Below, piece by piece: positions 2,595-49,469 of a DNA stretch of 64,000 bases. Source of the DNA: Paracyclopina nana (lineage: Eukaryota > Arthropoda > Copepoda > Cyclopoida > Cyclopettidae); assembly GCA_019096065.1 (NCBI GenBank), contig JAGUCH010000008.1:4903001-4967000 (forward strand), given 5' to 3'. Every line of letters starts with the position of its first letter. Positions within the stretch are counted from its first letter, which is position 1. Made by a program: the position numbers and the translations under genes. The notes under the pieces were generated by a model. The model did not search any database, had not been told where the DNA came from, and worked only from the letters and a program-made list of their open reading frames with translations.

Positions 2595-3146
2595 TTATGG
2601 TCGCACACAGAGAAATGATTCCATACTTGCACCAGGGCATCCTTCTGTGCAATCTCCCCATTTGCCTTCAATCACGGTGCCATTTTGATGGACCTGAGTT
2701 GCGCACCAAACCGCACCCTCTGCTGCATGGGTTGAAGTGCAGCTATCGTACTGAATTCCCTCGTAAATGAATGGAAAAGTGCATGGTTCCCCATCATTTC
2801 CGATCGTCTTACAAGATGCTGAAAAGACCATTTTAATATCGCTATAAAATATTTGCACACGTTTTACTGAATAATTACTGCAAGTTTTGAGGCATGACAA
2901 TCCTTTGGCGCATTTGCCACCGATCCCATTAGGACCTCCACAGGGCTGCAACTCTGATTTGGCACACGCGAGACAACATCCACATTCATCGTAGGTGTAC
3001 ATTCCACTTTCACAACAATGAGGAGGGGGTGGACACGAAAAATTAGGCACAACTTTACACAGGCAACCTTGACAGTCCTCCATCAAAAAGGAGTGCAAAA
3101 CTAGCAAAATCACAGCCAATTGGGATGACACCAGCTTCGACCCCAT
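2595..3146 (-). CDS. Secreted IGFBP-N domain plus fibronectin type II domain protein
   Basis: Two exons, 3146-2879 and 2818-2595, flank a 60-bp intron (GTAATT..TTTCAG, phase 1) and give 163 residues. Residues 1-27 are a signal peptide (hydrophobic SSQLAVILLVLHSFL). The next ~65 residues are Cys-rich with CGCCLAC, matching the GCGCCxxC signature of the IGFBP N-terminal domain, as in arthropod single-IGFBP-domain proteins. The C-terminal ~55 residues (GEPCTFPFIYEG, YDSC, WCAT, GKWGDC) are a fibronectin type II module, normally a collagen- or ligand-binding extracellular fold. The frame would also read through the intron, but only the spliced form keeps IGFBP spacing. IGF/insulin-peptide binding or an immune role is family inference. 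The FN2 addition is unusual for the short IGFBP proteins. Confidence 0.85.
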   Translation of the reverse strand: MGSKLVSSQLAVILLVLHSFLMEDCQGCLCKVVPNFSCPPPPHCCESGMYTYDECGCCLACAKSELQPCGGPNGIGGKCAKGLSCLKTCSNYSVKRVQIFYSDIKMVFSASCKTIGNDGEPCTFPFIYEGIQYDSCTSTHAAEGAVWCATQVHQNGTVIEGKWGDCTEGCPGASMESFLCVRP

Positions 3147-4063
3147 CCTTAATTTTTCTCCTTCACTATTTGTGCTGCAATGTACAAAATCCTATACTTA
3201 AAAGAAGCTGCGAAGCAAAACAAGTAAAGTTTTGCAATTCAACCGTACCCGTAGTGTGTGAAATAAAAAGGTGCGAAAAGGTTATCGAAGATATTAATTA
3301 TTTTTGGCTCACCTAAAACGTGGTTTCAGCTCTGTGCAATGACTGCAACTGCAAAAATGTAAGGCTGTACCGTTGCAGGCTTTAAGTACATTCAATGATT
3401 ATAATGGCAATCGCCAAATGTCAAGCACTTCGTCATGTCAAAAGTCTTATGGGTTGCAGCAACAGCGCGTTGTTGTCTATATGGGTGAGGTTGTACTAAA
3501 GCACACTACTGGGAAAAAAGTGTGCATACTCCTTGAGAACGAGCTTGCACTCATCTTCATCATAAAACCCCGATTCCGCCCTGTCACGCTACTATCGCTC
3601 GTAACAAACACACACTGGGGTGTTATACTAGTATTCGTGCCTGAAAAGAATTTATTTAGGCCAAATTAAAAATGGTCAGTCCTTGATCTTGTCAATGACG
3701 GTGGAATGGACGCGAAGGTGTCAAGCTCATTTGATGGGACCTATGATTTTCTTCATTTTCCACCACCACCGGATGGCGAATAGACCTCATGCTTTGAAAT
3801 GAGGCTTTTAAAGAAAATGATTGAAATTTGAGAGCAACCACCAATTTGAGACATAAATTATCTGTCAAGATTCGGCCCCAACTCACAAAAATTATTCTAC
3901 TGGTACAGCATTGAAAAATCGACATCCCCTTTTTCCTCCCCAGAGCACTCGATTTTTTTGAAGGTCGTTCGCGCAAGTGCGCATACGCAATCATCAAGGA
4001 ACAGACTAATTTATTGTCGCGGAAAAAATACACGGCTTAATGTCATCGCATTTATTGCTGGCA
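3147..4063. other. Intergenic: no gene seen
   Basis: This lies between the IGFBP-FN2 gene start and the AP-4 beta stop. It contains only short overlapping frames without coding character. The AP-4 beta poly(A) signal (AATAAA on the minus strand, near 4046-4051) lies at its right edge. Confidence 0.6.
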
Positions 4064-8765: not shown

Positions 8766-9797
8766 TTATTTCACAGCATCTTTAGGGTCTGACGCCGACG
8801 AACTTCTGTAGCTTGATCCGTAAGTTTGCTGACCGTAAGTTTGCTGACCATAAGGCTGCTGACCGTAAGTTTGCTGACCATAAGGCTGCTGAGTACCGTA
8901 AGATCCATAGCCTCCAGTGTACCCATATGAAGGAGATCCGTAAGACTGGCCATACCCATAAGAATTGGGAGTTCCATATCCGAGCGAGCCATAAGCTTGA
9001 GGAGACACTCCAGCGTACTTTTGCAAATATTCATATTCGGCAGGAACATTGTTGTAGTCAAACTTGACCCTCAAATTTTGCGTCTTGTAATCGTTTTGGA
9101 CTTCCGTATACTCGTTGATTTTGTTCAAGACCGAAGGGATGTGGCTATCGTCATTCACCGAAGTGCTTCCAGCAGTCAAACCATATCCGCCAAGACCGCT
9201 CAATCCATAGGAACCATATCCGCCATAGCCACCAACTGAGGATGATCCGTATACTCCATAACCTCCAATGGCACCATAGCCTCCATAAGAAATGCCATAC
9301 GTGCTAGGTGATCCGTAGGACGAGTATCCTCCATAGCTAGGTGCTCCATATGACGAATATCCACCATAGCTTGGCGATCCGTAGGACGAGTATCCTCCAT
9401 AGCTAGGTGCTCCATATGACGATTGGACCCCGTAGCTCCCATAAGATTGAGGAGCATAGCCGTAAGAAGGGGGTGCCCCGTATGAATTGCCGTAAGGTTG
9501 ACGGGGTACTCCGTGATGATCGCAAGGAGGTTGACCATATTGGGATACTCCATATTGTTGAGGTCCATATTGAGGCTGTTGAGGCCCATACTGAGGTTGT
9601 TGGTTGCCATATTGGGGCTGCTGGCTACCGTATTGAGGTTGTTGGCTGCCATATTGCGATTGGGTTGCCGCGGGCGCTTGAGTACCCGAAGCTTGACCTC
9701 CAGAAGCCGACGACTTCGGATAAGATGCATCTTGCGTTCGTATATGGCTTACGCAGATTGTGAGCACAACCACAAGCAGAAGAGAAGAAGCCCTCAT
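8766..9797 (-). CDS. Secreted Gly/Tyr-rich low-complexity protein
   Basis: 343 residues from ATG 9797. A non-coding first exon ends at 9864 and a 63-bp intron (9863-9801) sits in the 5' UTR, which places the start at [20 protein letters not shown], a clean signal peptide. The mature protein is built of low-complexity blocks: [13 protein letters not shown] units, then about six [14 protein letters not shown] units, then GYGGYG blocks, and YGQQTYGQQ units at the C terminus. A non-repetitive island of about 55 residues ([39 protein letters not shown]) splits the repeats and may be the conserved core. Composition resembles cuticular, silk or adhesive structural proteins, but no chitin-binding R&R consensus is seen. 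The exact role is unknown. Confidence 0.8.
8815..8900 (-). repeat. 18/21-bp YGQQ(T/P) coding repeats in the Gly/Tyr gene
   Basis: The plus-strand unit GTAAGTTTGCTGACC and variants recur four to five times, coding [10 protein letters not shown] on the minus strand. Separate repeat blocks lie at about 9310-9420 ([11 protein letters not shown] units) and 9570-9660 (QYGSQQP units). Confidence 0.75.
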
Positions 9798-9864
9798 TGT
9801 CTGCAAATAAGATATGAATAATGCGACGATTCCTGAAGAATTAATCGATTTTTGCACCCTTACC

Positions 9865-10213
9865 TTTCTGATTAAAACGCACTGGCTGAACTGAACTGGA
9901 AATGGAAGAGGGATGTTGACCGCTGAGAGCTGGCCAAGTTAATACGCTGAGCAAAAAGACCGAACTGATTTGGCTGAGATTATTGAATAAGGTTGAGATC
10001 GAGCGCATTTTGGGTTGAGCGGGAAATTTTGATATCAGTTCATAACCATTAAAATGCTTCTATTGATTCTCACAAAAACTTAAAAACTTTAAAATTAATG
10101 ATTAATCGTTTCATGGCCGAGCCAGAAATCGTTGTCAATTGCTAACAATAGAAATGGTGAAAGATGTCTTTTTTGTCCAAAGTAGTTCTATTTCATGAAA
10201 AAACTAGTATCGA
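9865..10213. other. Intergenic between Gly/Tyr-rich gene and CHAF1B
   Basis: Holds the promoter and upstream part of the non-coding first exon of the Gly/Tyr-rich gene and the CHAF1B 3' UTR. No gene or clear TATA box is identified. Confidence 0.5.
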
Positions 10214-39801: not shown

Positions 39802-40352
39802 GGAAATCAGTCTGAACCTGATTTACTGCAGCAGTAGTAATTCAGTGAAGTGCAACTTTTCACTTGGCTGTCGCCACCAGTCTTATATCAGCAGATAACA
39901 CATTATCTACTGCCACCTAACTCGCTAGTGCGCTTTTTCATCCTTGCTAAAAAATCTGTACTAAATCAGTTTGAAATCAGTCTGAACCGGATTTACTGCA
40001 GCAGTAGTAATTCGGTGAAGTGCAATTTTTCACATGGCTGTTGCCACCTGTCTTATATCGGCAGTTAATACATGATCTACTGCCACCTAACTCGGTAGTT
40101 CCCCAGTGCATCCTTGCTAAAAAATCTGTACTAAATCAGTTTGAAATCAGTCTGAACCTGATTTACTGCAGCAGTAGAAATTCGGTGAAGTGCAACTTTT
40201 CACATGGCTGTCGCCACCAGTCTTATATCAGCAGATAACACATTATCTACTGCCACATAACTCGCTAGTGCGCTTTTTCATCCTTGCTAAAAAATCTGTA
40301 CTAAATCAGTTTGAAATCAGTCTGAACCTGATTTACTGCAGCAGTAGTAAAT
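39802..40352. repeat. 170-bp tandem repeat, about 3.2 copies
   Basis: Units begin near 39802, 39972 and 40142, with a partial copy from 40312. Each starts GAAATCAGTCTGAACCTGAT and includes CTGCAGCAGTAGTAATTC, then CAGTCTTATATC and TACTGCCACC. Copies are over 90% alike by eye. It lies inside the TIR element. Confidence 0.85.
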
Positions 40353-47390: not shown

Positions 47391-49469
47391 TCATTTATTT
47401 TTATAGAGTGTCAACAGCCAATTGAAAAAATTATCTCGGTCCTTCCACATCGAATTTGGGATATTTTCACTACCGCGAGAACTTTTTGACCTTTGATGCT
47501 GCAAAAGTTCCTGTGGTTCAGGATGAATGATTCTTCTCTTTGATTTCGTGTTGTTGATGTTGCTTAATGCAAGGGAATCACTTCTGCTGCTGATCAAATT
47601 TTTCGGCTGAAAGAAGGGGAAAAATGACGTTATAGAACTTAGCTGTACATGATGCAAGTGCCATGACATTGAACTCACGTGAAATTTTATAGAGTAAACG
47701 GCATCATCAAATGCGTAATCATCCTCGTTTTCATCTAATGGCAAAATGAACTGACGGCTCGGTTTGAAAGGAATATGGCGAGATTTGCGAGTGGATGTGT
47801 CAACGTAATCATCTCCGAAGACATTGTAGTCATCGCTATCACTATAATCATACTCAGGTAGAATGGGCAAATCCGTCGGATTCACATTGTCTAGCACGGT
47901 AACTGCAGTGTCAAAGTCTATATTGTCGATGTCACCCGGGATTTTGGACAAGTCAAAGCCTGGAGGTAAGTTAAGCAAGGTATTGATTTGTCCCTCTGTC
48001 AGCTGAGACAGCTGCTCAACTTGCTTGGGCGTCAGCTGACTCAGCTGGTTCACTTGGGTGGGCTTTAGTTTACTCAGCTGAGATATTTGGTCACCTGAGA
48101 GCATATTCAGCTGCTCAATTGTGTTAGAGTCCAGCTCATTGAGCTGCTTCAATTTGGCAGGGTCAAGCTCAACTAAAATATCAATTTGATCTTGGCTCAA
48201 CTCGTTCAGCTGTTTAAGCTGATCGGCTGATAGTCTTGTCAGCTGATCCACTTGCGCTGGGGTCAGCTTGGTCAGCTGGGTCAGCTGCTCTGGCTTCAGT
48301 TTATTAAACTGGTCAATCTGCTGGGGTGTCAGCTGATTCAGCAGCTTGAGTTGCTCAGGGGTCAGCTTCTGCAGCTGCTCAACTTGCTCAGGGCTCAGCT
48401 GCTGCAGTAGATCAACTTGCTCTGGGCTCAGCTTTTGCAGTCGATCCACCTGCTCAGGATTCAGTTTTTGAAGCACTTCAATCTGACTAGGGGTCAGTTG
48501 ACTCAACTGGTCAACTTGTCTCGACTCAATTGGGTGAGCAATTTCACTTGCTCAGCTGACAGTTGATTGAACTGGTCAATTTGCTCGGGCGTGAGCTGAC
48601 TCAAAAATTGCACTTGCTCTGGAGTCAGTCTGCTGAGCATCTCCACTTGCACCGGAGTCAACTGGTTCAACTGCCTCACTTGTGTTGGGTTCAGCTGCTG
48701 CAACAGCTGCACTTGACTGGGAGAGAGCTGCATTAGTTGCTGAACTTGCTCAGCGCTCAGCTGGCTCAGCTGCTGAACTTGTTGCGGTGACAGCTGACTG
48801 AGTTGCTGCACTTGCTGAGGTTGAGTCGACTCAGTTGCATCACTTGTGACGGATTGAGACTCCTGAGTTGCTGAATTTGGTCAGGCGTGAGCTGACTCAG
48901 CAGGTTGACTTGAGTTGGGCTGAGTTGGCTGAGCTGACTTATTTGATCCTGGTTCAGCTGCCTCAGGAGCTGAATTTGCATGGGATCTAATTGCCTAAGT
49001 TGTTGCACAGTCTGAGCATCCAGTTGGCTCAGTTGCATCACAGTTGCTGAGTCTAGTTGAGAGAGCTGAGTCACAGTGGCTGGGTCAAGCTGCATCAGCT
49101 GCCTCAGCTGATCAGGCTGGAGCTGAGTGAGCAGCATGACCTGCTCAGAGCTGAGCATTCTCAGCATTTCCACCTGTTGCGGCTGGAGCATTCTCAGCTG
49201 TTTGATTTGCTCAGGCGTGAGCATTCTCAGCTGGTTGATTTGCTCCAGTGTGAGTCCACCAGTGAGGCTTCTGAAGGCGGCAAAGGCCGCCCCTCCAGCA
49301 GCAGCAAGGCCCAGTTTGGCAGCCCCTGCGGCTGCCAGCTTTGTGGCCAAGTCTCCCATGACAACGACTGAGGGTATGGCACCAAAATGGGAGCTGATTC
49401 ATAGCTCTTGATGAAGAACACAAGAAAGGCTATTGCTGTAATCCAACTGCTCCACCACTTGGACTTCAT
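47391..49469 (-). CDS. Secreted protein with ~39 tandem 11-residue repeats; frame broken three times
   Basis: It starts MKSKWWSSWITAIAFLVFFI (signal peptide) at 49469. An Ala-rich helix follows (LATKLAAAGAAKLGLAAAGG), shared with the small paralogue. From about 49254 to 47966 run some 39 units of 11 residues, consensus [S/T]PEQVxQLxQL, with nearly invariant Leu at two positions and S/T-P-E/x-Q helix caps. An acidic Asp/Tyr segment and a 72-bp intron (47678-47607) lead to a basic C-terminal exon (SKRRIIHPEPQE..FNWLLTLYKNK). The reading frame shifts by one base near 49385, 48821 and 48520, yet the repeat pattern continues across each. Either these are assembly indels or the gene is decaying. 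I do not recognise the family. Amphipathic helix/solenoid structure is inference. Confidence 0.7.
47966..49254 (-). repeat. 33-bp coding tandem repeat array, ~39 units
   Basis: The unit on the plus strand is close to CAGCTGACTCAGCTG..TTGCTC and its period is 33 bp throughout. Codon third positions vary widely between units while the amino-acid pattern stays, so the array is old and under protein-level constraint rather than freshly expanded. Confidence 0.85.

Follow-up and report, generated by a model that had tools for sequence, protein, structure and literature searches.

The locus described here raises two questions: what kind of protein would be built from 39 head-to-tail copies of one 11-residue unit, and is the gene that encodes it still intact? 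The window, by which we mean the whole stretch of DNA analyzed (64,000 nucleotides, C8:4903001-4967000), comes from the Paracyclopina nana assembly, which comprises 91.95 Mb in 10 contigs.

Layout of the gene

As Table 1 shows, the parts of the gene follow one another in the order signal-peptide-like start, Ala-rich domain, 39 units, tail, probable intron and last exon, and the array is real. The residues API directly after MKSKWWSSWITAIAFLVFFIKSYES are the same as those at the mature start of a nearby paralog, and the encoded product is probably secreted. In the AlphaFold model the tail is largely without regular structure and has a single 9-residue helix. The probable intron has a length that is a multiple of 3 and contains no stop, such that its retention would add 24 translated residues. 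For comparison, 11 of the 15 gaps between matches to CCT chaperonins in the same genome span 38–68 nt.

Table 1. Features of the repeat-protein gene and its neighbor, in window coordinates
Feature	Position	Strand	Remarks
Repeat-protein gene, ATG to stop	49469..47391	minus	
Signal-peptide-like N terminus, MKSKWWSSWITAIAFLVFFIKSYES	49395..49469	minus	judged by eye
Frame break 1, single base	49383..49388	minus	separates signal peptide from Ala-rich region
Ala-rich domain	49252..49385	minus	common to gene and paralog; low-confidence prediction of one 30-residue helix
Repeat array, 39 head-to-tail 33-bp units	49251..47967	minus	
Units 1-13 of the 11-residue repeat	48823..49251	minus	one helix per unit in model
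Frame break 2, single base	48823..48824	minus	TGAGTCGA stops a few bases earlier
Units 14-22	48527..48823	minus	
Unit 23	48495..48526	minus	split by single-base frame break 3 (near 48518-48523); adjoins second TGAGTCGA
Units 24-39	47967..48494	minus	one helix per unit in model
Tail	47679..47966	minus	LPPGFDLSK..., acidic Tyr-rich DYSDSDDYNVFGDDY, then basic site TRKSR
Probable intron, 72 nt	47607..47678	minus	GTGAGT...TTCTTTCAG; by eye
Last exon and stop	47391..47606	minus	
Tandem paralog of N-terminal part, 92 residues	46361..46083	minus	same strand as repeat gene

A first-pass annotation of this locus had described about 39 uninterrupted 33-bp units preceded by a signal peptide and an Ala-rich helix. 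The N-terminal parts hold up, as a signal-like start is seen by eye both here and in the paralog, and residues 12-41 are helical in a low-confidence model. The count of 39 tandem units holds as well, with 38 intact and one (32 bp) split by a frame break, but the description of the units as uninterrupted does not, since the reading frame is broken by a single base at three sites. That annotation had joined the frames, and it contained neither the three breaks nor the repeat-free paralog located 1 kb downstream.

Elsewhere in the window, the minus strand carries a 390-residue open frame (8766-9938) with a signal-like start and Tyr/Gly/Ser/Gln-rich repeats that has no Pfam match to E 0.01, and its product is a candidate for a further structural secreted protein. 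The region 2595-3191, also on the minus strand, encodes an IGFBP-like domain (24.9 bits, Pfam cut-off 28) and a fibronectin type II domain (39.9 bits). A 170-bp tandem repeat (3.2 copies, 90% matches) is located at 39803-40350, and between 56001 and 58000 the G+C content reaches 0.56 and long open frames overlap on both strands.

The repeat unit and its conservation

All unit statistics refer to the 38 intact units, the split unit 23 having been left out before counting. The unit consensus reads [STDN]-P-[ED]-Q-[VI]-x-Q-L-x-Q-L. Position 5 is V, I or L and position 11 is Leu in 38/38 units; at position 8, 36 units have Leu and the other two have Phe. S, T, D or N is found at position 1 in 33/38 units, Pro at position 2 in 26 (another residue in 12), and Gln at position 4 in 33 (another residue in five). 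Position 7 is Gln in 24/38 units and a large hydrophobic residue (L, M, F, V, I) in 12. Against a background of the array's own composition, and for positions chosen after looking, the enrichment at positions 1, 2, 4, 5, 8 and 11 gives binomial P values of 4e-16 to 2e-26; weaker enrichment is observed at positions 7 (Gln, P 3e-7), 10 (Gln, 1e-4) and 3 (E/D/Q, 6e-4). The repeat is not due to chance.

The mean pairwise identity between units is 53% of bases and 45% of residues, and identity by codon position is 0.56, 0.67 and 0.37 for the first, second and third positions. Six different Leu codons are used at position 8, and six at position 11. These codon-position identities and the variety of Leu codons at both sites argue that the units are old and that the protein is what was kept. 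Likewise, the protein pattern was selected, since V/I/L-5 and Leu-11 are present in every intact unit while third codon positions agree at only 37%. Adjacent units are slightly more alike than those far apart, with a base identity of 0.60 at a distance of one unit and of 0.52–0.57 at distances of 2–12 (Spearman -0.18). The data thus bear out the earlier claims that the amino acid pattern was kept while the DNA diverged and that Leu occupies two fixed positions. The S/T-P-x-Q cap had been attributed to every unit, which goes too far for the units that lack Pro-2 or Gln-4. In composition, the array is 24% Gln (about 2.6 per unit), 21% Leu and 3.6% Lys.

A predicted helix in each unit

AlphaFold2 was applied to two parts of the protein. 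For units 24-39, with two other array pieces serving as the alignment, the model contains one helix in 16/16 units, each starting at unit position 2 (mean pLDDT 44.4, pTM 0.27). When the Ala-rich domain was modeled together with units 1-13, the alignment being made up of three other window pieces, a 30-residue helix (12-41) is followed by one helix in 13/13 units, again from position 2 (mean pLDDT 50.6, pTM 0.27). The unit helices are 7–9 residues long in 29/29 units modeled, and pLDDT is <70 at every residue of both models; one short helix per unit is therewith predicted at low confidence.

The element L-[STDN]-P-[ED]-Q-[VI] resembles the classical beginning of a helix, and most units carry its signals. 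Helix starts are described as being reinforced by N-cap residues, by a capping box from N3 to the N-cap, which Gln at N3 can also make, and by a hydrophobic contact between N' and N4 (PMC11101637, in excerpt); the pairing of capping box and hydrophobic motif occurs in glutathione transferases (PMC4429112, in excerpt). We propose that each unit would form one helix of 7–9 residues begun by its own N-cap, with S/T/D/N as N-cap, Pro as N1 and Gln as N3, and with the Leu of the previous unit and Val-5 forming a hydrophobic staple. Stacking of these helices, chiefly through Val-5, Leu-8 and Leu-11, would give a rod with 2–3 units per turn and, if regular, a length of ∼15–35 nm.

A backbone scan was carried out with the helix fixed at positions 2-10, residue 11 varied and residue 1 extended, with neither side chains nor oligomers. 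No clashes are present in 721 of the 1092 conformers. The 25 conformers with the best 5/8/11 burial contrast turn by 129–178 degrees and rise by 3.9–8.9 angstrom per unit, and 22 of these 25 are left-handed by the sign used in the scan script. Among 165 triples, 5/8/11 shares the highest attainable burial contrast (it is listed second), and none of its ten other rotations is among the 15 triples listed. In the 36 most compact conformers, mean burial falls in the order 8, 5, 7, 4, 11, and of the 15 most compact, a single one has 5/8/11 as its top triple. A correlation is seen between mean burial and the conservation of residue class (Spearman 0.64, P 0.03, n=11; 0.73 without Pro-2), and the corresponding value for single-residue conservation is 0.51 (P 0.11). 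The scan shows that a stacked-helix screw is possible, and nothing beyond that.

A period of 11 residues would also be expected of a right-handed hendecad coiled coil, and a phmmer search with the typed consensus matches 6h9l, a solved structure with tandem TKEDIEALRKA 11-mers, at E 1e-5. That match, however, rests on period and composition, and the aligned 6h9l repeats contain no Pro and are strongly charged, unlike the array. The hydrophobic residues at 5, 8 and 11 are spaced 3-3-5, not 3-4-4, the Pro at position 2 in 26/38 units would disturb a long helix, and in both low-confidence models the helix is interrupted at every one of the 29 units. A coiled coil of this kind is accordingly very improbable.

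Returning to stacked short helices, an 11-residue helical unit would, to our knowledge, be the smallest of any natural alpha-solenoid. In its boldest form, the proposal is of a natural one-helix-per-unit solenoid in which 39 self-capped 11-residue helices form a rod of the above length, having evolved within one arthropod lineage from a 90-residue secreted protein and paralleling a screw fold that looks designed; taken with all of its parts, we consider this speculative and rather unlikely.

Searches for relatives

Pieces of the gene have no match at the curated cut-offs of Pfam and NCBIfam, PHROGs gave nothing under E 0.01, and Foldseek against the PDB returned no match at E 0.001 for either model (0/52 for the first and 0/1 for the second). 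The first-pass annotation had suggested one short helix per unit and had placed the protein in no named family. Both statements agree with the HMMER and Foldseek searches and with the structure prediction, in which all 29 units are helical in models of mean pLDDT 44 and 51.

Several family matches fell below their cut-offs and were rejected: NH_RiPP_Os17 (E 2e-9, but 37.5 bits versus 40, with a best stretch of 22 residues), Abi_alpha (E 5e-5, but 23.9 versus 29 bits), LTXXQ (E 4e-4, but 21.6 versus 24.3 bits) and Phasin_2 (E 8e-4, but 20.1 versus 24.9 bits). We read these as single LTPEQ-type helix starts or as helical composition. De novo TIM barrels in the PDB profile search (E 1e-6 to 5e-6) were set aside as 13-residue stretches. 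Leucine-rich repeat, HEAT, TPR, ankyrin and TAL-effector profiles gave no match to E 1 in the Pfam search of three gene pieces. The R&R cuticle family Chitin_bind_4 has no match in the gene pieces or the paralog; the genome has 80 such matches at E 0.001 or better, versus none in any of 14 control prokaryotes, which supports an arthropod host. Type I antifreeze proteins have an 11-residue Thr spacing, and this candidate was rejected on the grounds that Thr is at position 1 in only 12/38 units and Pro at position 2 in 26/38.

Outside of this genome, none of the 108 and 371 pattern matches in bacterial/archaeal genomes, nor of the 18 in IMG/VR, was confirmed as a relative; phages gave no matches, and plasmids gave two places at 28.6% identity. 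Searches of open-licence papers listed no account of such a repeat. Within the literature and databases searched, the repeat protein appears to be undescribed.

Among PDB sequences, HeliScrew4 (9zem) matches best, at E 3e-4 with the window piece, 1e-7 with the typed consensus and 3e-7 with the unit profile. HeliScrew4 and the array have in common a tandem L-[ST]-P-[ED]-[QK]-[IVF] helix-start motif. They differ in the unit itself: by eye, that of HeliScrew4 has eight residues and is Ala-rich and LTPEQIAA-like, whereas that of the array has 11 and is rich in Gln and Leu. The 33-bp spacing, which holds across the array save at the breaks, does not correspond to an eight-residue unit of the HeliScrew type. 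From its name HeliScrew4 is seemingly designed, and from name and sequence we would guess that it consists of short N-capped helices stacked into a screw. 9zem is absent among the fold matches listed by Foldseek for both models, and we treat the likeness as a motif match that does not imply descent.

An 11-residue helical periodicity is also a feature of exchangeable apolipoproteins, synucleins and LEA group 3 proteins, and apoA-I contains helical repeats of 22 (2 x 11) residues punctuated by Pro. The amphipathic 11-residue period of the array could accordingly belong to a lipid-surface protein resembling an exchangeable apolipoprotein, in which Pro-separated amphipathic segments would wrap lipid particles. 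However, we know of no N-cap/Pro start in every unit of these families, and the array is poor in charges, with 27 K+R and 40 D+E in the 418 residues of its intact units. The hydrophobic moment of the repeat is 1.73 at 120 degrees and 1.09 at 100, unlike that of one long alpha helix. Finally, exchangeable apolipoprotein, synuclein and LEA_4 models, which are presumably present in Pfam, gave no match to E 1 with the three gene pieces in a search whose HMMER filters drop weak matches. A lipid-surface role is thus unlikely.

Breaks in the reading frame

Each break shifts the frame by a single base; one lies at 48823 and the other two in the neighborhood of 49383-49388 and of 48518-48523. The three shifts share a direction, which places the tail and the signal peptide in one frame, and at both array breaks the unit pattern is kept right up to the break bases. 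Introns were considered as the cause and rejected: no GT[A/G]...[C/T]AG stretch with a pyrimidine-rich end and a length of 32–98 nt (2 mod 3) spans any of the three breaks, and the pattern is intact up to the array breaks.

Eight CCT chaperonin loci from this genome were inspected as a control (23/28 family matches, ∼4,100 translated positions). By eye, none of the 15 gaps between matched stretches is a bare one-base frame change. The gaps contain introns, GT...AG with one perhaps GC...AG, two long ones having been viewed at their ends only; the second gap of locus L023 has a weak A-rich acceptor. Since no bare break is seen in these ∼4,100 positions, general assembly error would rarely give three breaks, and a Poisson bound from the control puts three in ∼690 codons at ∼0.015.

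This contrast, three breaks here versus none in the CCT loci, is what would be expected if the breaks are real and a formerly useful repeat protein was recently broken in the individual or species, and the location of break 1 outside the repeats points the same way. On the other hand, the three open pieces (558 codons) contain no stop codon, and V/I/L-5, L/F-8 and L-11 are kept in 38/38 units. Simulated neutral decay retains both features with a probability of 0.43 after 5 substitutions, 0.22 after 10 and 0.019 after 25. These values make an old pseudogene unlikely; we regard a young one as a serious though doubtful possibility.

The lack of decay in the rest of the gene, together with the common direction that joins signal peptide and tail, is readily accommodated if the gene is whole and all three breaks stem from local consensus errors. 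TGAGTCGA occurs in only two copies on the gene's strand, at 48833-48826 and 48528-48521, each a few bases from an array break, which suggests a context-linked pattern, and round contig sizes such as 6,825,000 point to an assembly that was scaffolded. When pairs of array sites are drawn at random, 0.6% of the draws have a twice-only 8-mer in common and 2.2% have any 8-mer in common, although this comparison is post hoc and break 1 has no TGAGTCGA context. Also to be set against local error are the CCT loci, in which nothing like it is seen, and four long ORFs of the window that are likewise open, though these were picked for openness. On balance we give local assembly error an even chance.

In favor of programmed frameshifting, by which the breaks would be read through, all three breaks call for one direction of shift, and two of them share the 8-base TGAGTCGA context. 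That context is weak evidence, no canonical slippery heptamer is seen by eye at any break, and three serial events would result in a very low yield, making recoding extremely unlikely.

Number of copies and a probable origin

The repeat was found at one place in the genome, a lower bound, and the gene is apparently single-copy. A search of the genome with the typed consensus gave twelve further matches at E 1e-4 to 0.74, eleven of them at E 0.07 or weaker. The strongest, on C1 (E 1e-4), was rejected as a chance match, its frame running antisense to a Gln-rich coding region.

The N-terminal domain, in turn, is found at two places in the genome, 3 kb apart. The tandem paralog has a signal-like start (by eye), the API... 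mature start, the Ala-rich domain and a Gln/Tyr-rich tail, and no repeats; its Ala-rich domain is 61% identical to that of the repeat gene over 36 residues (E ∼4e-5). The upstream regions of the two genes gave nothing convincing by blastn, with a best match of 27 bp at E 0.03. The ATG of the paralog directly follows a splice-acceptor-like TCTTTTTCTGCTCTTCCAG, which suggests an intron in the 5' UTR.

From these likenesses, the small neighboring gene is the probable donor of the N-terminal domain. A copy of this gene, for an Ala-rich secreted protein of ∼90 residues, would have gained an 11-codon unit that then multiplied. The simplest reading is that the small gene was duplicated and that the array then grew, and the reverse order is also possible.

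A proposed role for the repeat protein

We propose that the product of the gene is, or was until recently, a secreted structural protein. The solenoid and the lipid-binding, silk or adhesive roles put forward in the first-pass annotation are at this stage conjectural. As the three frame breaks may mean that the gene is dead, its present function depends on whether they are real. As an extracellular scaffold or filament, the rod would have its place in cuticle, cement, egg or a secretion, and might be fixed by Gln-Lys (transglutaminase) links or by Tyr-Tyr links through the Tyr-rich acidic tail. We infer such cross-linking from the Gln and Tyr content only, and since Lys is so scarce in the array, partner proteins would be needed for the Gln-Lys type.

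The closest functional analogue is most likely involucrin of the mammalian cornified envelope, an elongated helical rod with units that are not known to carry a Pro cap. Involucrin is described as having a 10-residue unit that is repeated 39 times, with three Gln per repeat, and that is fixed by transglutaminase, and as having one Gln only that is a ready substrate in vitro (PMC8835998, in excerpt). Both proteins would then consist of 39 tandem short Gln-rich repeats, an equality of number that we take as coincidence. They differ in that involucrin has 10-residue units and is attached inside the cell membrane, whereas the array has 11-residue units, and the involucrin profile gave no match to E 1 in the Pfam search of three gene pieces. 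Lipid-binding, coiled-coil and antifreeze readings fit worse than a structural rod. As a whole, the observations are best explained by an apparently single-copy gene for a secreted Gln-rich rod of capped helices, an involucrin-like extracellular structural protein, an account that we favor tentatively and with considerable reservation.

Whether or not the breaks are real, automatic annotation will probably split this gene or overlook it; if they are real, the locus would document that such a repeat protein was lost recently. Should the helices stack as proposed, the protein would be a natural example of an architecture whose nearest solved sequence seems designed, and it would offer a testable rule, an N-cap and a staple in each unit, with length set by copy number. 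If the rod reading holds, the locus would illustrate a route by which the addition of repeats turns a small secreted protein into a long extracellular rod.
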